Of a DNA stretch of 39,599 bases, positions 5,144-30,138 are shown one piece after another. The translations under genes and the position numbers were made by a program. The stretch covers positions 1 to 39,599 of the forward strand of contig CALVXM010000001.1 in assembly GCA_944371305.1 (NCBI GenBank), in the 5' to 3' direction. The stretch is from an uncultured Bacilli bacterium. Its GTDB lineage: Bacteria; Bacillota_I; Bacilli_A; RF39; UBA660. Positions within the stretch are counted from its first letter, which is position 1; the number at the start of each line of letters is the position of its first letter. The notes below the pieces were generated by a model. The model saw only the letters and a list, made by a program, of their open reading frames with translations. It had not been told where the DNA came from and did not search any database.

Positions 5144-6781
5144 CTACCTCACCTTTTTAAATTTTTTTAATATATTGTTAATAAATTCATTACCAAATAC
5201 TTGATTAAATATTTTATTTTTAAAAGATAAAATAAAATATATCAAACAACCAATAGTTGCATAAATTAAAATTTCTAACAAAGCCCACAATCTCGTCGTT
5301 GGAAAATCTGGTAATAATAATCTTATAATCATTAAACTCAAAATCATAATACCATTAATTAAGATTATCTTTATACCTGGAACAATAGTAGAGCGATAAC
5401 TAATCTTATATTTTTGTCTTAATTTATATAATAAATATATGACTGATAATCCTTGAACTAACATCGTTGTAAAAATAGAGCCATAATAAGCTTCAAATCC
5501 TAAAAAATGAAATAAATGCATCATTGGTATATTTAAAATAGCCTTTAAAATGAAACTACCAAATAAAGTTCCTAAAGCTGTTTTAGGATTATCTAAAGCA
5601 TTAGTTGTATCAACTAATACATAGAAAAATGAATTAATTATCGTCTGTAAAATAAAGAAACTAAATACATCTATACTTAAAGCATCGTAACCATAAAATA
5701 AAGTCCAAACACTACTTGATAAAAAACATAAACCTAATGTCATCGGTAGCGATATAAATAAAATTATCTTTAAAGCTTGATTAATTTTAGTAGATACTTC
5801 ATCATATCTTTTTAATGTTGCACTACTTACTACACTTGGAATAATACTCATAGTAATACCAAAAGTAATAGCTAAAATAATCATGTTTAGCTTAGCACCC
5901 CAAGTTGTAATAATACTTAAAACGTTTTCAGAAACATTAACATCATACCCTAGACCAACCAAACCTCTTACAATTGTAAAAACATCGACTGTGTTATAAA
6001 TTGATCTGATAAATTCAATTAAAATAAAAGGAAGCGAATATAAGACAATTCTTTTGAAAATAACTTTATTAGTTAATTTAGCTTCGGCTTTGGTCGGTTT
6101 TTCATTGCGCATCAAAGCTTCCCTATTTTTATTTATTTTGTTAATTATATACAAATATGCAGCTATTGCTCCAGCAGTGGCTCCAAAAGTTGCTACCCCA
6201 ACTGTTGTTGTTATCGATAAATGAAATACTTTTAAAGTTAAATAACTACCACCTACAATAACAATAACTCTCACCAATTGTTCAACAACATTAGCAATAG
6301 CAGGAACTGCCATCATTCTATGTCCTTGAACATAACCCTTACTCACACTTAAAATTGGAATAAATAATAACGCTGTCGATATAACTCTTATGACAAATGT
6401 AATATCTTCTATAGTATTACCACCTTCAATATCACCAATTATTAAATAAGCAATATTAGGTGCGAAAACAAATAAAACAATAAAACTAACAATACCTAAA
6501 CCAACAATAATATATTTTCCAATTTTATAAGCTCGTTCTTGAGCATTATAATAACCCAAAGTATTATATTCACTAACAGCTTTAGCCATCGCACTAGGAA
6601 TACCAGTCGATGATAAAGAGGCAAATACGGCATAAATCGTATAAGCATAACTATATAAAACAGCCCCTTGAGTACCAATAATAGCACGAAAAGGAATAAC
6701 GTAAATTATTCCTAAAATCTTACATAATACAATACCAATTGTTGATATCATTGCCCCTTCAACAAAGCTATTTTTTTTCAA
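5144..6781 (-). CDS. spoVB: MATE/MurJ-superfamily flippase, SpoVB-like
   Basis: Polytopic inner-membrane lipid-linked oligosaccharide flippase of the polysaccharide biosynthesis/SpoVB family; in sporulating Bacilli SpoVB is needed for cortex formation. Seen: about 14 hydrophobic segments over 545 residues and the N-terminal signature KNSFVEGAMISTIG with VIPFRAIIGTQGAVLYSYAY. The start is TTG 6781, six bases after GGGAAGTG, the same spacing as the LtaS-like gene. An upstream ATG at 6820 only exists because this frame runs through the cse60-like gene. Being behind cse60 supports a sporulation role, but a paralogue flipping another polymer with galE cannot be excluded. Confidence 0.85.
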   Translation of the reverse strand: MKKNSFVEGAMISTIGIVLCKILGIIYVIPFRAIIGTQGAVLYSYAYTIYAVFASLSSTGIPSAMAKAVSEYNTLGYYNAQERAYKIGKYIIVGLGIVSFIVLFVFAPNIAYLIIGDIEGGNTIEDITFVIRVISTALLFIPILSVSKGYVQGHRMMAVPAIANVVEQLVRVIVIVGGSYLTLKVFHLSITTTVGVATFGATAGAIAAYLYIINKINKNREALMRNEKPTKAEAKLTNKVIFKRIVLYSLPFILIEFIRSIYNTVDVFTIVRGLVGLGYDVNVSENVLSIITTWGAKLNMIILAITFGITMSIIPSVVSSATLKRYDEVSTKINQALKIILFISLPMTLGLCFLSSSVWTLFYGYDALSIDVFSFFILQTIINSFFYVLVDTTNALDNPKTALGTLFGSFILKAILNIPMMHLFHFLGFEAYYGSIFTTMLVQGLSVIYLLYKLRQKYKISYRSTIVPGIKIILINGIMILSLMIIRLLLPDFPTTRLWALLEILIYATIGCLIYFILSFKNKIFNQVFGNEFINNILKKFKKVR

Positions 6782-9986: not shown

Positions 9987-11339
9987 TTAATGTGTTACAG
10001 ATGGAGTAAATGCATTATGCACTAAAATTGAATATTTTGTTACTAAATAATTATGCAATCCATCAACTTCCATATTATAAACAGTTACTGGTTGTTCCAA
10101 CTTTTCTAAAATAATACTATCTATTCTTAAATTACCATTTTTAGAAATCAACTCATCACCGACTTTTAAATCATAAGCTCTAATCCACCCTTTATCAACA
10201 ACATAAAATTGGTGTTTTGGAGTAACTTCTATAATATCATTTTCAACCTTAATTGTATAAATTTGATTACTTTTACCAACAAACTTATTTAAAATTGGTT
10301 TTAATTCTATTTCATCAGTAGCAATATTTATAGCATAAACTTTTTCACCTATTTTAATATCTTCGATGTTTTTATAACCATTTTCTGTATAAACCAGAGT
10401 ACCTGCTGTAAAACAAGAAGTACCAGCTGTTGTTTCAGCTACAGCTTCATTTCCCGCTTTATCAGTTACTATTACCCTTATGTTATAACTACCAGAACTA
10501 GATAAATTTTCAATTTTAGAAGTATTTTCATCTCCAGTATAAACTAATTTATAATCTGGTTCAGAAGTTTCTTTATAGTAATAAGCATATTTATCAATCC
10601 CACTACCTACTTCACTAGTATCTGATGCCTCAACACTAACTACAAAATCGGACTGATTTTCATATTTACCGGTTACTTTAACAGTAGGGACTGTCTTATC
10701 TAATTTTATAATTTGACATACTTTTTCACTATTGGATATACCATTACTTGCTATCGCACATACATAATTAACACCTTCTGTTGAAATAGTAATAGTTCCA
10801 TCAACAATATCAATAGGTTCACATTCAATAGAAGATATACAGTACTTTTTGTCATCTTCACCTGTTATATTAATAATGACATCTTCTTTAAACCAACCAT
10901 TAGCATTCATTTTACTGATATCATAATTAATAGCGACAGTTGGGGTGATAGTTCCTTCTACATCACCTTCTATTGCAAATCGCCCATCAGTAATCATAGT
11001 ATAGATATTATGATTACTTTCTACCATTAATTCAGTTATCTTACCATCAGTATAAGTTATTTTAGTTACTTTAGAGTTTCCTAAATCAATCATTTTGCTT
11101 ACTTCATCAATAGTTATTCCATCTGCACATATATCTTCTGTTCCATCTAATTGCGCCTTCATCGCTGAGGTGGCGCAATAACTCTTTATACCACTATATA
11201 CCATTTGAGCTTCAGACATTCCTGCTGATTTTCTAGCATCATTAATCACATTTAATACAATTGGTGTCGCTATAAGAGTTATTATAGCTAGTATTATAAT
11301 TACTGCTAATAATTCAATTAACGTAAATCCTTTTTTCAT
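9987..11339 (-). CDS. type IV pilin-like protein with C-terminal Hint autoprocessing domain
   Basis: Surface protein built like a pseudopilin with a self-cleaving tail. Seen: a canonical prepilin leader KKG^FTLIELLAV (Glu at mature position 5) and hydrophobic helix to about residue 30; a pilin head to about 125; a four-Cys module at about 130-215 (C167, C173, C194, C208) shared with the three giant pilins; an Ig/fibronectin-like domain at about 218-303; then a Hint domain. The Hint begins at C309 (TSCFTAGTLV), has the block-B TPKH (T373, H376), the late DGLHNY, and ends at VHN (N442). The next residue is Ala and only eight residues follow N442, so protein splicing with a C-extein is not expected. 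Cleavage or transfer at S308/C309 is the likely chemistry. The ATG is preceded by GTGAGGAGAG. The LtaS-like gene lies downstream past a terminator. Function is inferred from architecture. Confidence 0.85.
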   Translation of the reverse strand: MKKGFTLIELLAVIIILAIITLIATPIVLNVINDARKSAGMSEAQMVYSGIKSYCATSAMKAQLDGTEDICADGITIDEVSKMIDLGNSKVTKITYTDGKITELMVESNHNIYTMITDGRFAIEGDVEGTITPTVAINYDISKMNANGWFKEDVIINITGEDDKKYCISSIECEPIDIVDGTITISTEGVNYVCAIASNGISNSEKVCQIIKLDKTVPTVKVTGKYENQSDFVVSVEASDTSEVGSGIDKYAYYYKETSEPDYKLVYTGDENTSKIENLSSSGSYNIRVIVTDKAGNEAVAETTAGTSCFTAGTLVYTENGYKNIEDIKIGEKVYAINIATDEIELKPILNKFVGKSNQIYTIKVENDIIEVTPKHQFYVVDKGWIRAYDLKVGDELISKNGNLRIDSIILEKLEQPVTVYNMEVDGLHNYLVTKYSILVHNAFTPSVTH

Positions 11340-18094: not shown

Positions 18095-18127
18095 GGGTAT
18101 GATTTAAAGAACTTGGAGGTGAAGATG

Positions 18128-18391
18128 ATGGCTAACATGAAAAATGCAAAGAAGAAAATTAAAGTAATCGCTAAAGAAACAAAAACTAATAATGACTATA
18201 CTGCAAGTATGAAAACTGCTTGTAAAAATGTTGAAAAAGCAGTAATTGCTAAAGATAAAACTAAAGCAACTGATAATTTGAAAACAGCTATTAAAAGAAT
18301 CGATAAAGCTACTCAAGCTGGTGCTATTAAGAAAAACACAGCAGCTAGAAATAAATCTCGTTTGACGAAAAAAGTAAATGCAATGGAATAA
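18128..18391 (+). CDS. rpsT: 30S ribosomal protein S20
   Basis: Primary-binding small-subunit ribosomal protein with a three-helix bundle. Seen: MANMKNAKKKIKVIAKE, a Lys-rich sequence, the ending NTAARNKSRLTKKVNAM typical of S20, and an 87-residue length. ATG 18128 is chosen because the family begins Met-Ala-Asn and GGAGGTG lies six bases before it; ATG 18125 is adjacent but too close. It is followed by a terminator overlapping the gene end. Confidence 0.96.
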   Translation: MANMKNAKKKIKVIAKETKTNNDYTASMKTACKNVEKAVIAKDKTKATDNLKTAIKRIDKATQAGAIKKNTAARNKSRLTKKVNAME

Positions 18392-19341: not shown

Positions 19342-19349
19342 ACACTTTT
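19315..19349. terminator. bidirectional terminator between the transglutaminase-like and kinase genes
   Basis: A 15-bp perfect stem (19315-19329 with 19335-19349) and a five-base loop, with A and T runs on either side, so it serves both convergent genes. Confidence 0.9.
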
Positions 19350-20569
19350 TAATTGAATATTTTATAAATAGGTAAAGTAATTATTACTTTTGTTCCTTTA
19401 TTTTTCTTAGAAAAATAATCTAATGTGCCATTATGAGCTTCGATAATTTCTTGTGATAAAGAAACTCCCAAACCAGTACCATTTTTTTTAGTAGTATAAA
19501 ATGGTTCTTTTATTCTTTTTAAATCTTCTTCTGATATTCCTGAACCATTATCCTTAATAATAATTTTAAAATTATTATCAATTATCTCGTAATTAATATT
19601 TATTAGAGGTTTATTTTGATTATCTAAAGCCTCAACAGAGTTTTTAATCATATTAATTAATACTTGATTTAATCGATTATAGTCTCCTTCAACAAAAACT
19701 TCATCTTGAGAAATATTAGTTTTTAATTCAATATTTTTTTCTTTTAAAATTAACTCAAATTGATCAACTACATCTTCTAGTAACATGTTAATATCTAAAA
19801 TTTCTTTTTGGATTTTTATTTTATTCATCGATAAAAAATCTTGTAGTAAAAGAAGAATTTTTTCAATTTCTTCTTTTACGATAGTTATATATTTATCATG
19901 ACTTTTATTATTAATATCAAACATATCTAAATAACTTTTACAAACAGCTATTGGATTTTTTATTTCGTGAGTAATTTTAAATAATGAAGTCCTTATCTGT
20001 TTATCTTTTTCTAATTCTTTAATGTCCATATGTAATTTAATTATACCTTCACCCTTTTTGTACATATATAAAATTAAATAAATTATAATAATAAAACTGA
20101 TATACATAATCAAATTACTGACTATACAGTATTTGTCCATGTAGAAAAAATAAGTTATTAAAGAAAATACTGTTTTAAAAATAAAATATAAAGGTAAAAA
20201 TTTATTTGTTTTTAAAGTGAATAAATAAATTAGATAAAAACTAACATATTCTAAAATAAAAATTATAATATTAAAATCTAAAGTATAATATATACAAACA
20301 ATAATTATTGAAATTATAATAGCTACAAATGATCTTTGTTTCATATAAGATATTATTAAAGGAACATTAAAAAGTAATAATAAACTTATATTATTTTCTA
20401 TATCATTATACGAAATTAATAAATATAAACTTGATAACAATGCAAAATCTAAAATTGCCATACTTTGATCCTTATTAAGCTCTTTACTATACATACAGAA
20501 AAATAAATTAAAAATAAGTGGAAATACTAGAAGAATAACATCCATTAAAACTACATGTAATATATCCAT
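19349..20569 (-). CDS. orphan KinB-like sensor histidine kinase
   Basis: Membrane histidine kinase. Seen: six or so hydrophobic segments in the first 170 residues with no large extracellular domain, a HisKA block FKITHEIKNPIAV (H201), then an HATPase domain with N box INMIKNSVEAL, DNGSGIS, EPFYTTK and GTGLGVSLS. The layout of many helices directly joined to the kinase core, and the HEIKNP box, match KinB-type sporulation kinases that feed Spo0F/Spo0A. No response regulator lies nearby. Two tandem 0A boxes overlap the promoter, pointing to Spo0A control. The ATG follows AGGTGAGTTATT. The phosphorelay role is inferred. Confidence 0.88.
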   Translation of the reverse strand: MDILHVVLMDVILLVFPLIFNLFFCMYSKELNKDQSMAILDFALLSSLYLLISYNDIENNISLLLLFNVPLIISYMKQRSFVAIIISIIIVCIYYTLDFNIIIFILEYVSFYLIYLFTLKTNKFLPLYFIFKTVFSLITYFFYMDKYCIVSNLIMYISFIIIIYLILYMYKKGEGIIKLHMDIKELEKDKQIRTSLFKITHEIKNPIAVCKSYLDMFDINNKSHDKYITIVKEEIEKILLLLQDFLSMNKIKIQKEILDINMLLEDVVDQFELILKEKNIELKTNISQDEVFVEGDYNRLNQVLINMIKNSVEALDNQNKPLININYEIIDNNFKIIIKDNGSGISEEDLKRIKEPFYTTKKNGTGLGVSLSQEIIEAHNGTLDYFSKKNKGTKVIITLPIYKIFN

Positions 20570-20587
20570 AATAACTCACCTAAAATA

Positions 20588-20631
20588 ATTATAATATATT
20601 CTTTTATCAAATTTTGTCGAAACTTGTCGAA
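20588..20631 (-). promoter_or_regulatory. Spo0A-box promoter of the KinB-like kinase
   Basis: TATAAT at 20588-20593 (minus strand) with two perfect 0A boxes, TGTCGAA on the plus strand, at 20615-20621 and 20625-20631, spaced ten bases apart. No normal -35 exists at 17 bp. A -35-like TCGACA inside the first box lies 21 bp from the -10, an over-long spacing recalling Spo0A-activated spoIIG-type promoters. Confidence 0.7.
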
Positions 20632-20650
20632 ATATAGAATATTTTGCTTA

Positions 20651-20684
20651 AAAAAATAAATAGATAAAAATATCTATTTATTTT
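20651..20684 (-). terminator. terminator of giant pilin 1
   Basis: A 14-bp perfect stem (20653-20666 with 20671-20684), a four-base loop and a T run on the minus strand. Confidence 0.85.
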
Positions 20685-23316
20685 ATGCACAAGAATTAAA
20701 TCCTTCATAATCAATGGTAAAATTGTAGGTAAAAGTATTAGTATTACCAGCGTAATCACGATATGAATAAGTCCATGCATAACGGCAAGGATTATGACCT
20801 TCTGTTCTTTTACATCCACTAACAACATTTCCATTTTTATCATACATTTTTGTGCCATAACTATATGAATAATAACCACTTCTAGCATCAGTAAAAGTTG
20901 GTTTTACATTCCTTATTTGGAAATCTCCTACTACTCTTTTCAAACATATCTTTGCCGTACAAGTTGATCCTGAACAACTTTTATTTTGCACTGACAAATT
21001 ATAAACTTTACCAGTACTAGTTTCAGTTTGCGTAGATGTAATACCATTTAAATATGAACTACCTAAGGTTGCAGTTGGTGCTACCGTATCTCTTTTTACA
21101 GTCGTAGTACAAGTATTAGTATTTCCGGCATAATCTCTTACATAACCAGTATAAGTAGTACCACTTGTATCAACAGTTTGTGTTCTAGAAATTGTCGTAT
21201 AATCACCAATTCCTTTTTGATATACTCCACTAGTAGAATCGTAAGTAGATGAAAAACTAACAGTTACATTAGAACGATACCAACTACTAGATCCTAATGT
21301 TCCAGATTTAGTTAAACTACAAGTAGGTTTAACTGTATCTATTTTATAATAAGAACTACATACAATACCACTAGATTTACCTGATACACTTGTCGCTTGT
21401 GCACATACCCTATTAGTAGAACTATTAGTTGATAAAGTTCTAGTAGTTGTAGTTGAAGTCGGTGTACAAGATGAAGTTGAAGTAGTTGTACAAGTTTTTA
21501 GGCTTGATAGTCCACTACTACCAGTAGTTGCTGAAGTTCTTACCCCGACACTACTTGTATACCATCCGTTTAAACCTGAAGTTCCACTAGTTCTAGCAAA
21601 TGTTATTGTTGGCGTTGTTTTATCTAATTTATAAGTACTACTACATTGGGTTGAAGTTTTACCATTATTATCAGTTACTTGAATACAAACCCTATTATTA
21701 CCATTAGTCGAAATAGTAAAACTTTTAGTAGTTCCTGTAAATGTTGAAGTTGGTGTACAACTAGATGTACTATTAGTCTGACAACTCTTCATACTACTTA
21801 TTCCAGTTCCACTATTATCCGTTATTGTAGCATTTAAAGTTATATTAGAACTTACCCATGTGTTGGCACTAGTTGATGAACTATAAGTAATAGTTGGAGC
21901 TGGAGCATCAACGATTATATTTCTTGTAGCTTGTCTTACATTACCTGCTTTATCTTTAACTTGATATGTTACGGTATAAGTACCAGCTTTTGATGTACTT
22001 ATGCTAGAAGGTGTTACCGTTAAAGTTCCATCAATTCCTGATGGAGAATCGCTATAAGTTACGCCACTAGTTAGATTTACAGTCTGATATCTAGATACAG
22101 TAAGAGTATCAACGCCACCAATAACTGGTAAAGTCTTATCTAATTTATATGTATCACTACATATTTTAGTTGTTTTATTATTATTATCCGTTACTTGAAT
22201 ACAAATTCGATTGCTTCCTTCGGTTGTTATGTAATTATCTTTGATATTTCCCGTAAATGTTCCTGTTGGAGTACATTCACCAGTCGTGTTAGTTGTACAT
22301 GAAGCAGCCGATTTAATTCCGGTTCCACTATTATCAGTTACTGTAGCTCTTACATAAAAATCACTTTTTGCCCAACCATTACTATTTATTGAACTTGAAT
22401 CAAGTAGAGCGAAAGTAATTGTTGGTGCATCCGCATCGACTATTATATTTCTTATAACTTCTCTTATATTACCTGCTTTATCTCTTACTTGATATTTAAC
22501 TTGTTTAGTCCCTACTGTCGATGTATCAATTGTACTAGGCTCAATTAATAAACCTCCATCTAATCCCGATAAAGTATCATCATAAGTTACACCATTTTGT
22601 AAATCAATTGATTCATCTTTCATTATAACTAAGTCATTGACACCAGAGATAGTTGGTGGGGTCTTATCTAATTTTAAACTCTCACAAACTTTTTCACTAG
22701 TCCCTAATCCATTAATTGCAACAGCACAAACTACATTAGTTCCTTCATTCGATATTCCTACAGAGTAACTTGGCATTCTTTCTTCTATACTAGGAGTGCA
22801 TTCACTATTTGATATACAATATTTAATTCGATCTCCAGTTCCGTTTAAATTTACTAACATATTAGCTTTTAACCAACCATTAGTAAGTAAATTTTTATCA
22901 TAAGTTATCGTTAAAGTTGCTGGTTGTAATTCACATTCTTGATCATATTCAAAATCATATTGTTTAACACTATCATCCCAATAATACCAAACGCAACCTT
23001 GCATTTCTTCATCAGTCACTGGATTAATTATGCCAGTTTCCAAAAAGCCTTCCTGTTGCATTTTTGACACCATAATTGCCATTTTATCTTCAGCATTAGG
23101 TTGTCCCAAATCATTTTCGACGCTATAATTATAGGCTGCTTGTTCAATATTGTCGATAGTTATTTCCAATGATTTTTCTTTACTAGTTTTAATCGAATTA
23201 TCGACAACAGGAAAAACTATCAAAGCAATTACTCCTAATATAATTATAACCGCTAGTAATTCAACTAATGTAAATGAATTCGTTCTTTTTTTTGATTTTT
23301 TATTTTCTTTTTTCAT
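20683..23316 (-). CDS. giant pilin-like Ig-repeat surface protein 1 (877 aa)
   Basis: Pilin-like adhesin candidate. Seen: a Lys-rich leader, then S^FTLVELLAVIIILG with Glu at mature position 5, but Ser instead of the usual Gly before the cleavage point. A pilin head runs to about 140 and contains the CVWYYWD motif. It is followed by a four-Cys module (IKYCIS, VVCAV, EKVCES), Ig-like DUF5011-type domains carrying VKYQVRDKAGN and VTYQVKDKAGN, and several Thr/Ser/Cys-rich modules (SCTPTSTFTG). The C-terminal 150 residues are unlike those of the paralogues. There is one membrane helix only, in the pilin stem. No sortase motif is present. It has its own promoter and terminator. Paralogy with the next two genes is certain; adhesion is inferred. 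Confidence 0.85.
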   Translation of the reverse strand: MKKENKKSKKRTNSFTLVELLAVIIILGVIALIVFPVVDNSIKTSKEKSLEITIDNIEQAAYNYSVENDLGQPNAEDKMAIMVSKMQQEGFLETGIINPVTDEEMQGCVWYYWDDSVKQYDFEYDQECELQPATLTITYDKNLLTNGWLKANMLVNLNGTGDRIKYCISNSECTPSIEERMPSYSVGISNEGTNVVCAVAINGLGTSEKVCESLKLDKTPPTISGVNDLVIMKDESIDLQNGVTYDDTLSGLDGGLLIEPSTIDTSTVGTKQVKYQVRDKAGNIREVIRNIIVDADAPTITFALLDSSSINSNGWAKSDFYVRATVTDNSGTGIKSAASCTTNTTGECTPTGTFTGNIKDNYITTEGSNRICIQVTDNNNKTTKICSDTYKLDKTLPVIGGVDTLTVSRYQTVNLTSGVTYSDSPSGIDGTLTVTPSSISTSKAGTYTVTYQVKDKAGNVRQATRNIIVDAPAPTITYSSSTSANTWVSSNITLNATITDNSGTGISSMKSCQTNSTSSCTPTSTFTGTTKSFTISTNGNNRVCIQVTDNNGKTSTQCSSTYKLDKTTPTITFARTSGTSGLNGWYTSSVGVRTSATTGSSGLSSLKTCTTTSTSSCTPTSTTTTRTLSTNSSTNRVCAQATSVSGKSSGIVCSSYYKIDTVKPTCSLTKSGTLGSSSWYRSNVTVSFSSTYDSTSGVYQKGIGDYTTISRTQTVDTSGTTYTGYVRDYAGNTNTCTTTVKRDTVAPTATLGSSYLNGITSTQTETSTGKVYNLSVQNKSCSGSTCTAKICLKRVVGDFQIRNVKPTFTDARSGYYSYSYGTKMYDKNGNVVSGCKRTEGHNPCRYAWTYSYRDYAGNTNTFTYNFTIDYEGFNSCA

Positions 23317-23343
23317 CTCATGAACACCATCCTACTATACCTA

Positions 23344-23372
23344 ATTGTATCATACTAATCTAAAATTAACAA
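23344..23372 (-). promoter_or_regulatory. promoter of giant pilin 1
   Basis: TTGTTA at 23367-23372, a 17-bp spacer and TACAAT at 23344-23349 on the minus strand, starting directly after the terminator of giant pilin 2. Confidence 0.6.
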
Positions 23373-23400
23373 CAAAAATCAAACAATTAAGTTTGATTTT
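23373..23400 (-). terminator. terminator of giant pilin 2
   Basis: A ten-bp perfect stem (23375-23384 with 23391-23400), a six-base loop and a T run on the minus strand. Confidence 0.8.
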
Positions 23401-26002
23401 AATATACTTGACAGGTATCACTACCACTATTACCATTGTACCAAGTCTCTACGCGAATTGGATCAGCACAAGTTCCAACAGCATTACAAACTCGATATTG
23501 ATAGTTATAATATCCGCCACCATCACCTAAAACCGTACTACCCCAATTACGAGAGTATGTTTGTCCACCTTTACGATAGCAACCGCGATATTGATAGCTA
23601 CATCCACCTGATCGCGTACAACTATATCCTACAGCTATAAATCCAGGTGACATTCCTTTTTTGAAATATTGTAGATAATGACTAGATCTATGGCTAAAAT
23701 TACCACTTTGTAAAACACCATTATTAATTATTAAAGCATTACCATTAGCTACATCATAAAGTTTATTAATAGTATTGACAACTCCACGATCTACATATTT
23801 TTGATAATCGGCCCAAACAGTTGGCTTATCTTTATCAACATAAACATTAACTGAACAACTAGTCGAATTACCAGCATTATCATAAAGAGTTATAGAAGAA
23901 GTAGTAGTTGTACTAGTAAATGTTTTACTAGTTGAACTACAACCACTAGTTGAATCACTGCATCCAACAGTTATTGTTCGATTAGCTGCTGTCCATGTCG
24001 TACTAGCTCCTGATATCGTTCCACAACTTGGTTTAACTGTATCTATTTTATAGCTTGAACTACATTTGATATCACTCTTTTTACCTGATACACTAGTTAC
24101 TTGCGCACATACTTTGTTACTTGAACTGTTAGTTGATAAAGTTCTAGTATAACTGGTAGAAGTTGTACTTGTCGTTGGTGTACAAGTTGATCCTGTTGTT
24201 GTACATGTTTTTAAACTAGATATTCCACTACTTCCAACTGTCGCCGTTGCTTTTACCCCTACACTACTTCGATACCAACTATTACTTCCCAAAGTACCAC
24301 TTGTTCTTGTAAATGTTACTGATGGGGTTGTTTTGTCTAATTTGTATGTACCACTACATATCGTTGCTGTCTTGCCATTATTATCTGTTGCTTCTATACA
24401 AATTCGATTACTTCCATTAGTTGATATCGTAAAGTTTTTTGTGGTTCCTGTAAAAGTACTATTTGGAGTACAACTAGATGTACTATTAGTCTGACAACTA
24501 CTCATACTACTTATTCCGGTTCCGCTATTATCCGTTATCGTTGCCGTAACTGTAAAATCGGCATCTGCCCAGCCACTTGGATTAACATCTGAACTATTTA
24601 ATAGTTTATAACTTATCGTTGGTGCATTCGCATCTACTTTAACTGTTCTATATACTGTTGCTATATTCCCTGCTTTATCTTTGGCTTGATATGTTACAGT
24701 ATGAGTTCCTGCTTTTGTTGTACTTATACTAGATGGACTTATCGATATCGTTCCATCTGGTCCTGATAAGGCATCTGTAAAACTTACGCCACTACTTAGA
24801 TTTACTGAATTTCCTTTCATTACAGTTAAACTTGTTGCCCCACTTATTACTGGATTAGTTTTATCTAGCTTATATGTATCACTACATATCTTTGTTGTTT
24901 TATTGTTATTATCAGTTACCTGAATACAAATTCGATTACTTCCTTCAGTTGTTATATAATTATCTTTAATATTTCCCGTAAATGTTCCTACTGGCGTACA
25001 TTCACTAGTTGAATTAGTTGTACATGAAGCTGCTGTTTTAATTCCTGTTCCACTATTATCTATTATTGTTGCTCTTACATAAAAATTACTATTTAACCAA
25101 CCATTACTATTAACAGTTCCATTTGTTAAAGCAAAAGTTATCGTTGGTGCTTCAGCATCGACAATTATATTTCTTACTACTTCTCTAATATTACCTGCTT
25201 TATCTTTAACCCGATATTTTACTTGTTTAGTTCCTACTGTCGATGTATCAACTATATTAGGTTCGATTACTAAACTACCATCGATTCCTGATAAAGCATC
25301 TTCATAAGTTATTCCCGTTTTTAAATCAACTGGATCATTTCGCATAACCATTATATCGGCAATACCAGACATAATTGGTAAAGTTTTATCCATTTTAATA
25401 CTTTCACATACTTTTTCAGTTGTTCCTAAATCATTAGTTGCTACTGCACATATATAATTTGTTCCTTCTTTACTTACTCCAACCGAATAAGTTGGTAGTT
25501 TTTCCTCGATATTAGGTTCACATTCATTATTATCAATACAATACTTAATACTATCCCCATTACTTACTATATTAACTAACATATTAGCTTTCGCCCAACC
25601 ATTAGTTATTAATCCCTCATCATAAGTAATAGCAACCGTAGCCTCCTCTAAAGTACATTCTTGATCGTATTCAAAAATATATTGACTACTGTCCCAATAA
25701 TACCAAACACATCCTTCCATTTCTTCATCGGTTACCGGATTTATAATTTCTTTTTCTAAAAATCCAGTGTCTTGAAGTCGATCAAGCATTATAGCTTTTT
25801 TTTCGTCGATGCTAGGTTTATCAAAAACATTTTGAACACTATAATTATAAGCAGATAATTCAATATTATCAATTGTTTGATCTAATGAATCCTCTTTACT
25901 TTTTTTAATCGAATTATCAATTATTGGAAATGCTATTAAAGCTATTACTCCTAAAATAATAATAACAGCCATCAATTCAACCAAAGTAAAACCTTTCTTC
26001 AT
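23399..26002 (-). CDS. giant pilin-like Ig-repeat surface protein 2 (867 aa)
   Basis: Paralogue of the flanking genes. Seen: a canonical leader KKG^FTLVELMAV, a pilin head with CVWYYWD, the four-Cys module (IKYCID, NECEP, YICAVA, EKVCES), two DUF5011-like Ig domains (VKYRVKDKAGN, VTYQAKDKAGN), alternating Cys-paired modules (SCQTNSTSSCTP, RICIEATDNNG), and a unique C-terminal region from about 740 with many Tyr, Gly and Cys (YSCTRSGGCSYQYRGCY). The conserved stem and variable tip suggest a displayed binding domain. AGGTGTGATGAT precedes the ATG. It shares a 347-bp identical block with giant pilin 3. Confidence 0.85.
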   Translation of the reverse strand: MKKGFTLVELMAVIIILGVIALIAFPIIDNSIKKSKEDSLDQTIDNIELSAYNYSVQNVFDKPSIDEKKAIMLDRLQDTGFLEKEIINPVTDEEMEGCVWYYWDSSQYIFEYDQECTLEEATVAITYDEGLITNGWAKANMLVNIVSNGDSIKYCIDNNECEPNIEEKLPTYSVGVSKEGTNYICAVATNDLGTTEKVCESIKMDKTLPIMSGIADIMVMRNDPVDLKTGITYEDALSGIDGSLVIEPNIVDTSTVGTKQVKYRVKDKAGNIREVVRNIIVDAEAPTITFALTNGTVNSNGWLNSNFYVRATIIDNSGTGIKTAASCTTNSTSECTPVGTFTGNIKDNYITTEGSNRICIQVTDNNNKTTKICSDTYKLDKTNPVISGATSLTVMKGNSVNLSSGVSFTDALSGPDGTISISPSSISTTKAGTHTVTYQAKDKAGNIATVYRTVKVDANAPTISYKLLNSSDVNPSGWADADFTVTATITDNSGTGISSMSSCQTNSTSSCTPNSTFTGTTKNFTISTNGSNRICIEATDNNGKTATICSGTYKLDKTTPSVTFTRTSGTLGSNSWYRSSVGVKATATVGSSGISSLKTCTTTGSTCTPTTSTTSTSYTRTLSTNSSSNKVCAQVTSVSGKKSDIKCSSSYKIDTVKPSCGTISGASTTWTAANRTITVGCSDSTSGCSSTSKTFTSTTTTSSITLYDNAGNSTSCSVNVYVDKDKPTVWADYQKYVDRGVVNTINKLYDVANGNALIINNGVLQSGNFSHRSSHYLQYFKKGMSPGFIAVGYSCTRSGGCSYQYRGCYRKGGQTYSRNWGSTVLGDGGGYYNYQYRVCNAVGTCADPIRVETWYNGNSGSDTCQVY
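24477..24823 (-). repeat. 347-bp identical block, copy in giant pilin 2
   Basis: Every base from 24477 to 24823 matches 26964-27310 by direct reading. It codes for part of one Cys-paired module and the second DUF5011-like Ig domain. The flanking homologous sequence has diverged, including at silent sites. Confidence 0.95.
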
Positions 26003-26027
26003 ATCATCACACCTTTATCCTAGATAA

Positions 26028-26056
26028 ATTATAGCATATTAAATAGTTATTTTCAA
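26028..26056 (-). promoter_or_regulatory. promoter of giant pilin 2
   Basis: TTGAAA at 26051-26056, a 17-bp spacer and TATAAT at 26028-26033 on the minus strand. Confidence 0.7.
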
Positions 26057-26070
26057 TCGATTGTTTTGAC

Positions 26071-26104
26071 AAAAAAAGAAAATTTAAAAAACTTAAATTT
26101 CCTT
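26071..26104 (-). terminator. terminator of giant pilin 3
   Basis: A 12-bp stem with one G-U pair (26076-26087 with 26093-26104), a five-base loop and seven T residues on the minus strand. Confidence 0.75.
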
Positions 26105-26113
26105 TTTATTTGA

Positions 26114-28504
26114 TTACTTAAATGTACCATTTGAACCATCATAGGTAAATGTTTTTATAGCACTACAATTTCCAGCATTATCACAAGCTCTCATAGCATA
26201 CTGAATACTATAATCGCTAGCAAAACTTGTATGTAATTCCTCACTATAAGGTTCAGATAGATTTCCTCGAGTAATAGTCTTATTATCCGGTGATTTTAGA
26301 CTGCCATTATTAATATAATATTGCAATCTTTCTTTGGCAGAATATCCGCTTACGCAATAGTTAATTGCATTAGTTTGACTGGCTACTTTAGGAACAGCAC
26401 AATGCGATCTAGTAACTGTTAAATTATCAGCCAACTTATCATTAACTACATATTTAACACAAACTTTCCGACCTTGGCTAACATCAGGGGTACATTTACC
26501 ACCTGATGTTATTACAGGAGCAGTTTTATCTATTTTATAATTTGAACTGCAAATGACATCACTTTTTTTACCTGATACACTAGTTACTTGCGCACATACT
26601 TTATTAGTCACACTTTCACTTGATAAAGTTCTAGTGTAACTGGTAGAAGTTGTACTTGTCGTTGGTGTACAAGTCGATGCTGTTGTCGAACATGTTTTTA
26701 AACTTAATACACCACTAATACCACTAGAAGCTGTGGTCTTAACGACTACATTAGTTCTATACCAATTGTTAGTTCCAGGGGATCCGCTAGTTACTGCAAA
26801 TGTTGCTGATGGAGTTACTTTATCTAGCTTATATGTATCACTACATATCGTTGCACTCTTGCCATTATTATCTGTTGCTTTTATACAAATTCGATTACTT
26901 CCATTACTTGATATTGTAAAGTTTTTAGTAGTTCCGGTAAAAGTACTATCTGGAGTACAACTTGATGTACTATTAGTCTGACAACTACTCATACTACTTA
27001 TTCCGGTTCCGCTATTATCCGTTATCGTTGCCGTAACTGTAAAATCGGCATCTGCCCAGCCACTTGGATTAACATCTGAACTATTTAATAGTTTATAACT
27101 TATCGTTGGTGCATTCGCATCTACTTTAACTGTTCTATATACTGTTGCTATATTCCCTGCTTTATCTTTGGCTTGATATGTTACAGTATGAGTTCCTGCT
27201 TTTGTTGTACTTATACTAGATGGACTTATCGATATCGTTCCATCTGGTCCTGATAAGGCATCTGTAAAACTTACGCCACTACTTAGATTTACTGAATTTC
27301 CTTTCATTACTGTTAACATGGCTGTTCCACTTATTACTGGATTTGTTTTATCTAGTTTATATGTATCGCTACATATTTTAGTTGTCTTATTGTTATTATC
27401 AGTTACTTGAATACAAATTCGATTACTTCCTTCGGTTGTTATATAATTATCTTTAATATTTCCCGTAAATGTTCCTACTGGCGTACATTCACTAGTTGAA
27501 TTAGTAGTACATGAAGAAGCTGACTTAATTCCAGTTCCACTATTATCCGTTATTGTAGCTCTTACATAAAAATTACTTTTTGCCCAACCGTTACTATTGA
27601 TAGAACTTGCATCAGTTGGAGCAAAAGTTATTGTTGGTGCTTCAGCATCGACAATTATATTTCTTACTACTTCTCTAATATTACCAGCTTTATCTTTAAC
27701 CCGATATTTTACTTGTTTAGTTCCTACTGACGATGTATCAACTGTACTAGGTTCAATTACTAAACTACCGTCGATTCCTGATAAAGTATCTTCATAAGTA
27801 ACTCCTTTTTCCAAATCAACTGGATCATTTCGCATTACTATTAAATCAGTAACTCCAGATATAGTTGGTGGATTTTTATCTAGCTGAATACTTTCACATA
27901 CTTTTTCAGTTGTTCCTAAAGCATTAGTTGCTACTGCACATATATAATTTGTTCCTTCTTTACTTACTCCAACCGAATAAGTTGGTAATTTTTCCTCGAT
28001 ATTAGGTTCACATTCGCTATTATCGATACAATATTTAATGCTATCCCCATTACTTACTATATTAACTAACATATTAGCTTTTGCCCAACCATTAGTTATT
28101 AAACTCTCATCGTAAGTAATAGTAATTGTAGCTTCCTCTAAAACACATTCTTGATCGTATTCAAAATAATATTGATTATTATCCCAATAATACCAAACAC
28201 AACCTTCCATTTCTTCATCGGTTACCGGATTTATAATTTCTTTTTCTAAAAATCCAGTACTTTGAATACGATTAAGCATTATTGCTTTTTGATTATTGAT
28301 ATCTGGTTTTTCTAACTCATATTCCACACTGTAATTATAAGCAGCCTCTTCAATATTTTCAATCGTTTGTTCTAGTGATTTTTCTCTACTATTTTTAATT
28401 GAATTATCAATTATTGGAAAAGTTATTAAAGCTATTACTCCTAAAATAATAATAACAGCCATTAATTCAACCAAAGTAAAAGCTTTTATCTTTTTCTTTT
28501 TCAT
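26114..28504 (-). CDS. giant pilin-like Ig-repeat surface protein 3 (796 aa)
   Basis: Most upstream of the three tandem paralogues. Seen: a Lys-rich leader followed by A^FTLVELMAV (Ala instead of Gly before the cleavage point, Glu at position 5), a pilin head with CVWYYWD, the four-Cys module, two DUF5011-like Ig domains, Cys-paired modules, and a distinct C-terminal region of about 130 residues (CVKYVVNDKL, YAMRACDNAGNCSA). ATG 28504 is chosen because AGGTGAGTTT precedes it; ATG 28522 lacks a ribosome site and would add six residues. It has its own strong promoter and terminator. Confidence 0.85.
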   Translation of the reverse strand: MKKKKIKAFTLVELMAVIIILGVIALITFPIIDNSIKNSREKSLEQTIENIEEAAYNYSVEYELEKPDINNQKAIMLNRIQSTGFLEKEIINPVTDEEMEGCVWYYWDNNQYYFEYDQECVLEEATITITYDESLITNGWAKANMLVNIVSNGDSIKYCIDNSECEPNIEEKLPTYSVGVSKEGTNYICAVATNALGTTEKVCESIQLDKNPPTISGVTDLIVMRNDPVDLEKGVTYEDTLSGIDGSLVIEPSTVDTSSVGTKQVKYRVKDKAGNIREVVRNIIVDAEAPTITFAPTDASSINSNGWAKSNFYVRATITDNSGTGIKSASSCTTNSTSECTPVGTFTGNIKDNYITTEGSNRICIQVTDNNNKTTKICSDTYKLDKTNPVISGTAMLTVMKGNSVNLSSGVSFTDALSGPDGTISISPSSISTTKAGTHTVTYQAKDKAGNIATVYRTVKVDANAPTISYKLLNSSDVNPSGWADADFTVTATITDNSGTGISSMSSCQTNSTSSCTPDSTFTGTTKNFTISSNGSNRICIKATDNNGKSATICSDTYKLDKVTPSATFAVTSGSPGTNNWYRTNVVVKTTASSGISGVLSLKTCSTTASTCTPTTSTTSTSYTRTLSSESVTNKVCAQVTSVSGKKSDVICSSNYKIDKTAPVITSGGKCTPDVSQGRKVCVKYVVNDKLADNLTVTRSHCAVPKVASQTNAINYCVSGYSAKERLQYYINNGSLKSPDNKTITRGNLSEPYSEELHTSFASDYSIQYAMRACDNAGNCSAIKTFTYDGSNGTFK
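26964..27310 (-). repeat. 347-bp identical block, copy in giant pilin 3
   Basis: Partner of 24477-24823, in the same orientation 2487 bases away. Identity ends sharply on both sides. Confidence 0.95.
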
Positions 28505-28531
28505 AAACTCACCTATCTTCACTATAAATAA

Positions 28532-28570: not shown

Positions 28571-28897
28571 TTAACTATTTACTTTTAAAGCATCGATAAA
28601 CTTTTCAATTTTTTGAGCTTTCTCCCCTAAAATTATTTTCAATTGATTATCAATTTCTACAATTCCTTGAGCGCCTATTTTTTGGATTCCTTCTTTATTA
28701 ACTAATTTAGTGTTCTTAAGTTCAACTATAAAGCGCGATTTGTTAGTTTCATAACTAACAATGTTATCTTTACCTCCTAGATATTCAACTAATTTATTAG
28801 CCTCCAATTTAAAATCTTTCTGTTTTGATTTTACGATAGCCACTGCAATAATTATTAAAATAATTACAATTATCAAATATTGCCAAATATTTCCCAT
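28571..28897 (-). CDS. membrane-anchored PTS EIIB-like domain lacking the catalytic Cys
   Basis: Small membrane protein: one N-terminal helix (about 5-22) and a cytoplasmic domain of about 75 residues resembling glucose-type PTS EIIB. Seen: ANKLVEYLGGKDNI matches the EIIB start (GGKENI), GIQKIGAQGIVEID matches the middle, and GEKAQKIEKFIDAL the end. The phosphorylated Cys of DACxTRLR is replaced by Asn52 in ETNKSRF. It therefore cannot carry phosphate in the usual way and may be a structural or regulatory relic. ATG 28897 follows AGGTGATAAAA. A weak six-bp hairpin with a T run after the stop (28565-28586) may end the transcript. Confidence 0.75.
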   Translation of the reverse strand: MGNIWQYLIIVIILIIIAVAIVKSKQKDFKLEANKLVEYLGGKDNIVSYETNKSRFIVELKNTKLVNKEGIQKIGAQGIVEIDNQLKIILGEKAQKIEKFIDALKVNS

Positions 28898-29013
28898 TTT
28901 TATCACCTATTACCAATTATACTATAATTTATCAAATTTGCAAACAATTAATTGTATAATTTTAGGTTTTAGTGTAAGATAATAATAGACATAATTTAGA
29001 AAGGAGATTAATT

Positions 29014-30138
29014 GTGAAAAAAATATCAAAATATAAAGTTGATGTTTGGTTACTATTGATTTTGTTAGTTTTTGTCATTATAAGCTTAGTTACTATAAGT
29101 AGTGCTCAAGATTTGATTTCAAATAACTCTTTAGTTATTAAACAATTATTATGGTATATAGCTGGTTTTATAATCGCCTACTTTATTATGTTTATTGGCA
29201 ATGATTTTATTTATCGAAATGCTTGGTTTTTATATATAATAGGAATAATTTCATTACTAGGATTATTATTATTCGCTGAACCTATTAATAATGCTAAATG
29301 TTGGTATAGTATTCCCGGTATTGGAACAATCCAACCAAGTGAATTTATGAAAATAATTCTCATTATCACTTTAGGTACAATGATACATAAATTTAATGAA
29401 GAATTTTCTAATCCATCGGTTATGGAAGAATTCAAATTTTTAATTAAAGTAGCTATTGTCGTTTTAATACCAAGTATTTTAACTTTTTTACAACCGGATA
29501 CTGGAGTTGTACTCATATACCTACTTATCACAATTATCATGCTTTTTGTATCAGGCATTCGTTATCGGTGGTTTATTCTCTTATTTTCTATTATTTTTAT
29601 TTTAGTTGCTTTCGTCATAGCAGTATATTTTATCAATACCGATTTATTTATCAATATCTTTGGAACTGATTTTTTCTTAAGAATTGATCGATTGCTAGAT
29701 TGGTCTAATAGTAGTGGTTATCAATTAGAAAATGGCATAATTAGTATCGGGTCAGGTGGATTTTTAGGAATGGGTATCGGTAATACACCAATATATTTTC
29801 CAGAACCTCAAACTGATTTTATCTTTGCTGTTTATGCTAATAACTTTGGCTTCATTGGTACCATAATTTTATTAGGATTAATTGCCTTTTTCGATATAAA
29901 ATTAATTTTACTCGCTATTAAAAACACCAATTTAACTAATAAATTTATTATTGCTGGAATTGTTGGCATGTTAATTTATCAACAACTACAAAATATTGGA
30001 ATGACTTTTGGGTTAATGCCAATAACAGGAATTACTTTACCATTTATAAGTTACGGCGGATCTTCATTATTAAGTTATATGATTATGATTGGGATTATTT
30101 TTAATATTTCTAATGAAACTATTAGATATACTAATTGA
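29014..30138 (+). CDS. rodA: SEDS peptidoglycan glycosyltransferase RodA/FtsW family
   Basis: Polytopic membrane protein polymerising lipid II into glycan strands with a class B PBP. Seen: about ten hydrophobic segments over 374 residues, the extracellular-loop FPEPQTDFIFA carrying the catalytic-type Asp, GSGGFLGMGIGNT, and the C-terminal signature LMPITGITLPFISYGGSS. GTG 29014 follows AAAGGAGATTAATT. RodA is favoured over FtsW or SpoVE because of the short N-terminus and PITGITLPF, but the split is not certain. Confidence 0.9.
   Translation: MKKISKYKVDVWLLLILLVFVIISLVTISSAQDLISNNSLVIKQLLWYIAGFIIAYFIMFIGNDFIYRNAWFLYIIGIISLLGLLLFAEPINNAKCWYSIPGIGTIQPSEFMKIILIITLGTMIHKFNEEFSNPSVMEEFKFLIKVAIVVLIPSILTFLQPDTGVVLIYLLITIIMLFVSGIRYRWFILLFSIIFILVAFVIAVYFINTDLFINIFGTDFFLRIDRLLDWSNSSGYQLENGIISIGSGGFLGMGIGNTPIYFPEPQTDFIFAVYANNFGFIGTIILLGLIAFFDIKLILLAIKNTNLTNKFIIAGIVGMLIYQQLQNIGMTFGLMPITGITLPFISYGGSSLLSYMIMIGIIFNISNETIRYTN

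Follow-up and report, generated by a model that had tools for sequence, protein, structure and literature searches.

What switches on the orphan sensor kinase gene at 19349–20569 on the minus strand of the window (the whole 39,599-nucleotide stretch analyzed here), and which response regulator does its product serve? The organism belongs to a family of Bacilli with roughly 1-Mb genomes. A survey of these uncultured Bacilli predicts sporulation for some of them and notes that, in the Erysipelotrichales, the sensor kinase known from Bacillus sporulation is not found (PMC10868615). We consider it likely, from the sequence comparisons that follow, that a spoIIG-type, Spo0A-activated sigma-A promoter drives this orphan membrane histidine kinase, which in turn most probably phosphorylates Spo0A directly.

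The promoter of the kinase gene

The layout of the region upstream of the kinase gene is as follows. Read on the minus strand from 20631 to 20588, the sequence is TTCGACA-AGT-TTCGACA-AAATTTGATAAAAGAATATAT-TATAAT; that is, TTCGACA-N3-TTCGACA-N21-TATAAT. The TATAAT is separated from the ATG of the kinase gene (20569) by 18 nt containing an AGGTGA-type ribosome-binding site. The distal box (20625–20631) and the proximal box (20615–20621) are both TTCGACA, or TGTCGAA on the plus strand, and both are perfect matches to the 0A-box consensus. The preliminary description of this DNA correctly placed the two boxes ten bases apart, start to start, and correctly measured 21 bp between the -35-like TCGACA (20620–20615) within the proximal box, which is the first box on the plus strand, and the -10 hexamer TATAAT (20588–20593, minus strand). 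A degenerate third box, TTTGATA (20605–20611, minus strand), matches at five of seven positions and continues the 10-bp period. The description omitted two alternative -10 hexamers at ordinary spacing in the window copy, TCGACA-N16-TATATT and TCGACA-N18-TATTAT. The promoter is separated from the surface-protein gene upstream by a terminator-like hairpin and T-run (AAATAGATA...TATCTATTT followed by T7; 20634–20682, minus strand), which was read from the sequence by eye and was not flagged by the automated scan; in relatives, a terminator-like hairpin likewise lies 5′ of the boxes. No Rfam family was matched anywhere in the window. As read from its sequence, the kinase promoter region has the spoIIG-type layout: a 0A box over the -35 position, an over-long spacer, and a sigma-A -10.

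The tandem arrangement and the 21-bp register exceed chance; single boxes do not. TGTCGAA occurs five times in the window, against 2.5 expected, and since this excess is not significant, single-box counts were dropped as evidence. The full 44-nt pattern, with up to three mismatches allowed, is found once in the window and not at all in 100 dinucleotide shuffles. The exact tandem pair occurs three times in the 1.14-Mb genome, and a search of 60 genomes for it returned 59 sites, against none for the reversed-pattern control. Within the window, the best tandem score 5′ of the other 33 genes is 10 of 14, compared with 14 of 14 for the kinase gene.

Orthologs of the kinase are present through most of the family. 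Twenty-nine of them, from 13 genera and with 39–69% protein identity, were scored. Nearly all have TTCGACA-N3-TTCGACA, or a close form, upstream, and at least 12 of the 14 tandem positions match in 26 of the 29. In an analysis anchored on the -10 and covering spacers of 19–23 only, TTYGACA, the counterpart of the proximal box, was found 20–22 bp upstream of a TATAAT-like -10 in all 29, the distance being exactly 21 bp in 27. The distal box is matched at six or seven of seven positions in all 17 same-genus orthologs scored, and the third box reaches six or seven of seven in several orthologs. The second box typically lies one helical turn from TTYGACA. This partner box is on the upstream side of TTYGACA in the window's genus, at 31 bp from the -10, and on its downstream side in most other genera, at 11 bp from the -10. 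Bases outside the boxes and the -10 vary freely. On sequence comparison, such conservation resembles the outcome of selection on a promoter whose spacer is over-long, the situation expected if an activator replaces the -35 contact.

The ordinarily spaced hexamers allow a different reading, in which Spo0A represses: an ordinary sigma-A promoter would use the -10 spaced at 16 or 18 bp, the boxes over the -35 would block RNA polymerase, and the feedback on the kinase would be negative. Both hexamers are present in the window copy, within the window's genus a -10-like hexamer is found at offset 16 in 13 of 17 cases as well, and Spo0A represses directly elsewhere, e.g., comK at high level (PMC3297582). 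The other genera argue against this reading. When offsets were scanned without restriction in 12 other genera, -10-like hexamers were found at 16, 17, and 18 in only 3, 0, and 2 of them, versus 12 of 12 at 21, the only offset with such a hexamer in every genus. Furthermore, spoIIGA, an expected activation target, has the 21-bp register too. Repression seems unlikely, and Spo0A probably activates the kinase promoter.

The kinase and its phosphotransfer partner

The kinase has 406 residues, with several hydrophobic segments in the first 172, followed by HisKA and HATPase_c domains (Pfam) and the phospho-acceptor His201. The DHp and ATPase domains are intact. Among the family orthologs, His201 is invariant and the DHp motif near-invariant, and hardly any variation is seen in the DHp segment that determines the choice of partner. 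The label "KinB-like" given earlier to the kinase is apt for its architecture, that is, several membrane segments and no PAS domain found, and fails for its sequence, which has no KinB family model match. KinB orthology was rejected because of the predicted specificity residues, AVSYDM in place of the TVGFQL of KinB, together with the lack of a KinB model among the matches listed. Spo0F-directed kinases have the specificity residues TxGFQL (PMC6136694). AVSYDM, and the AVGYDM also seen among the orthologs, differ from these and do not exactly match any characterized Spo0A kinase.

Downstream of the kinase gene are a convergent gene for a transglutaminase-like protein, the gene for ribosomal protein S20 (18113–18391; the call is our reading of the translation), and the germination protease gene gpr. 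In relatives, the gene order is ftsW, an EIIB-like gene, the boxes, and the kinase, with the EIIB-like gene directly before the kinase. The window keeps the EIIB-like gene (28571–28906) followed by an ftsW/rodA-family gene (29014–30138) in the same order, and three paralogous genes for Ig-like surface proteins with an N-methylation motif (20683–28522) separate this pair from the kinase. The promoter has remained with the kinase. The EIIB-like protein that usually precedes the kinase (loci L014, L015, L018, L031, L032, and L033) has an N-terminal membrane segment. Because no cysteine is present in the copies read, it has probably lost phosphotransfer; it might be a sensor or an accessory protein. 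A further protein, encoded at 9987–11339 on the minus strand of the window, begins with an N-methylation motif and ends in a pretoxin-HINT/intein-like domain (PF07591, E 9e-23).

No response regulator gene is adjacent to the kinase gene, and a genome-wide census of kinases and receivers bears out the earlier description of the kinase as an orphan. All other true histidine kinases of the genome are paired or hybrid, with pairing judged from coordinates. Three receivers are unpaired: Spo0A, a REC-only protein, and an Hpt-REC protein. In genera with few two-component systems, Spo0A and the orphan kinase alone are left without a partner. In the related genome G032 (91% complete), three receivers were found, namely Spo0A and two that belong to kinase pairs; its histidine kinases comprise the two paired ones and the orphan, so that no other unpaired partner is left. 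G019 and G036 come close to this state. The assignment of the partner is by elimination within metagenome-assembled genomes that are 88–94% complete.

The components of a Bacillus-type phosphorelay were also sought. No SPOB_a match above the cut-off was obtained for Spo0B, and Spo0F was not recognized, the sole REC-only protein being without the Spo0F specificity residues. Spo0B diverges fast, and a cryptic copy is still conceivable. On these searches, the genome does not appear to encode the Spo0F and Spo0B of a Bacillus-type phosphorelay. Since neither protein was recognized, direct transfer from the kinase to Spo0A is likelier than a phosphorelay of the B. subtilis type, and we judge it quite probable that the kinase acts directly on Spo0A.

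The two additional receivers deserve description. The gene for the REC-only protein, P0004 (contig C23 of the same genome, 4735–5112; L119), lies between the L27 and obg genes, the position of spo0B in Bacillus. The Hpt-REC fusion, P0005 (contig C3, 13657–14409; L120), is an orphan; its receiver shares about 56% identity with P0004, and the two may form a small relay. P0004 was considered as Spo0F itself or as a stand-in for Spo0B and was not adopted, as searches of other genera in the family yielded no ortholog.

Another explanation is that Spo0A activates the kinase gene while the kinase serves some other receiver or relay, such as the REC-only and Hpt-REC proteins. The kinase would then be a sporulation-stage output kinase, or it would feed Spo0A indirectly. 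Both extra receivers are orphans conserved in the window's genus, which is in keeping with this proposal. However, the other family genera searched keep the kinase, the boxes, and Spo0A, no ortholog of either receiver was found in them, and Spo0A is the sole unpaired receiver in G032. We regard service to another receiver as improbable, on a par with repression.

It is less probable still that the kinase works mainly as a phosphatase of Spo0A~P, so that its Spo0A-driven expression would be negative feedback. Many histidine kinases are bifunctional, and the C. difficile literature describes phosphotransfer proteins and orphan kinases that reduce sporulation. In the present kinase, however, no sequence feature favors a phosphatase role, and the catalytic ATPase domain is intact.

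Spo0A and its candidate regulon

The preliminary description made its reading depend on spo0A, and the gene is present in the genome (TIGR02875, 254.7 bits versus a cut-off of 200). The DNA-binding domain of the encoded protein is close to that of solved Spo0A (1LQ1, E 6e-42; also like 1FC3) and keeps the SRVER-IRHA stretch. Across the family, spo0A was found in 36 of 37 genomes, and it accompanies the kinase in nearly all kinase-bearing genomes. This co-occurrence is weak evidence on its own because some genomes without a clear kinase ortholog (G022, G024, G028, and G029) also have spo0A. The sole genome in which spo0A was not found, G031 (90% complete), is also without a clear kinase ortholog or an exact tandem box. 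Genome G018 has two adjacent spo0A genes (contig C31, 5726–7336; Spo0A_C matches at 6134 and 7025).

The recurrent targets of the exact tandem box are the kinase gene, a gene for a ComK homologue, the intergene between a cold-shock gene and agrB, and, in G020, G032, and G050, spo0A itself; a few sites have no evident target. In the window's own genome, two perfect 0A boxes and a near-perfect third (contig C21, 6377–6403; L122, L004) lie just upstream of the gene for the ComK homologue (PF06338, E 4e-39), which is between dnaN and recF, and the boxes are in phase with a TATAAG -10. The ComK-linked sites are homologous in about ten genomes of the genus and have up to three boxes. The second site in this genome (contig C6, 51503–51519; L121, L003) places exact tandem boxes about 80–90 bp upstream of the cold-shock protein gene, between this gene and an agrB-like gene (PF04647) that is divergently oriented, and the same arrangement is found in several relatives. 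In this genome, spo0A is itself preceded by one perfect box, 82 bp upstream of its start. Binding of Spo0A is documented at the spo0A region (PMC3485338) and at the comK region, comK being repressed at high Spo0A level (PMC3297582). The ComK homologue seems, from its boxes, to be Spo0A-controlled as well, and the genes that share the exact tandem box would form a Spo0A regulon.

The spoIIGA gene is also present in the window's genome. When scored on the GACA core, since a threshold of five of seven box positions missed most loci, 20 of 28 spoIIGA loci in the same genomes have GACA-N21-TATAAT-like sequences. Their boxes are weaker, AACGACA or AATGACA. Because a terminator-like hairpin partly overlaps the region, spoIIGA is supporting, not clean, evidence.

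The proposed resemblance to Spo0A-activated sigma-A promoters therefore gains support from two sides: family members keep both the layout and its register to the -10, and other genes known or expected to be controlled by Spo0A have this pair of boxes as well. A different regulator sharing the TTCGACA core, or a chance repeat, is suggested by the near-chance frequency of single TGTCGAA sequences and is very improbable given the fixed register in 29 of 29 orthologs, the lack of matches in shuffles or reversed controls, the perfect agreement with TGTCGAA, the Spo0A core, and the recurrence of the repeat before spo0A and comK. As judged from these comparisons, the tandem boxes are very probably Spo0A sites.

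The proposed feedback loop and known systems

We propose the following sequence of events. Spo0A~P would bind head-to-tail, occupying the boxes along a single face of the helix. Bound Spo0A would replace the -35 contact and turn the N21 promoter on; we infer this replacement because the proximal box occupies the place of the -35 and the spacer exceeds the length suited to sigma-A alone by about 4 bp. The kinase, on receiving its signal, would autophosphorylate at His201 and hand the phosphate to Asp58 of Spo0A. More Spo0A~P would thus make more kinase, and such a direct positive loop would sharpen entry into sporulation. Allowing for the correlation between the component estimates, we believe the loop as a whole to be the likely arrangement.

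More tentatively, at somewhat less than an even chance, sporulation entry in this family may be governed by a minimal, self-reinforcing two-protein switch, with the membrane kinase and Spo0A directly coupled and the kinase promoter as the most conserved strong Spo0A target, the others being ComK and the cold-shock/Agr locus. If so, the kinase is a candidate for the sporulation sensor kinase missed by the gene-content survey of related Erysipelotrichales-type genomes. The promoter points to this candidate through its regulation, not its sequence, and predicts a direct feedback loop from Spo0A to the kinase. The conserved tandem box can serve as a search pattern by which to trace the Spo0A regulon of unculturable organisms.

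Promoters of the B. subtilis spoIIG type likewise combine 0A boxes over the -35 region with a sigma-A -10 at the end of an over-long spacer, the spacing at spoIIG being 22 bp. The spoIIG boxes are weak, whereas the present promoter has a perfect tandem consensus and drives a sensor kinase. B. subtilis KinB resembles the kinase in being an orphan of similar size with several membrane segments and no PAS found, and differs from it in the sequence features given above. According to one report, the kinB promoter is not subject to specific regulation during sporulation (PMC5540618).

Clostridial direct Spo0A kinases, such as C. acetobutylicum CA_C0903 and CA_C0323 and C. botulinum CBO1120, are also orphans with no Spo0F or Spo0B recognized, and their direct transfer to Spo0A is what we predict for the present kinase. 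The specificity residues of CA_C0323, NVSAQV, have V and S in common with AVSYDM. Unlike these clostridial kinases, the present kinase has no PAS found, belongs to a Bacilli lineage, and has conserved 0A boxes on its promoter; no 0A-box promoter for the clostridial orphan kinases is described in the open-access papers searched. C. difficile CD2492, considered as a precedent for a Spo0A-controlled kinase, was set aside, as Rosenbusch et al. 2012 mentions it only as a proposed Spo0A kinase. In the open-access literature, which is a subset of the whole, we found no case of direct Spo0A control of a sporulation-kinase promoter.

In B. subtilis, Spo0A feedback runs via AbrB, sigma-H, and kinA and also via spo0A autoregulation (PMC12090719). 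Like the loop proposed here, it is positive and raises Spo0A~P at the entry into sporulation. The kinase arm of the B. subtilis circuit runs via sigma-H, whereas the kinase arm in this family would be direct, via the 0A boxes.
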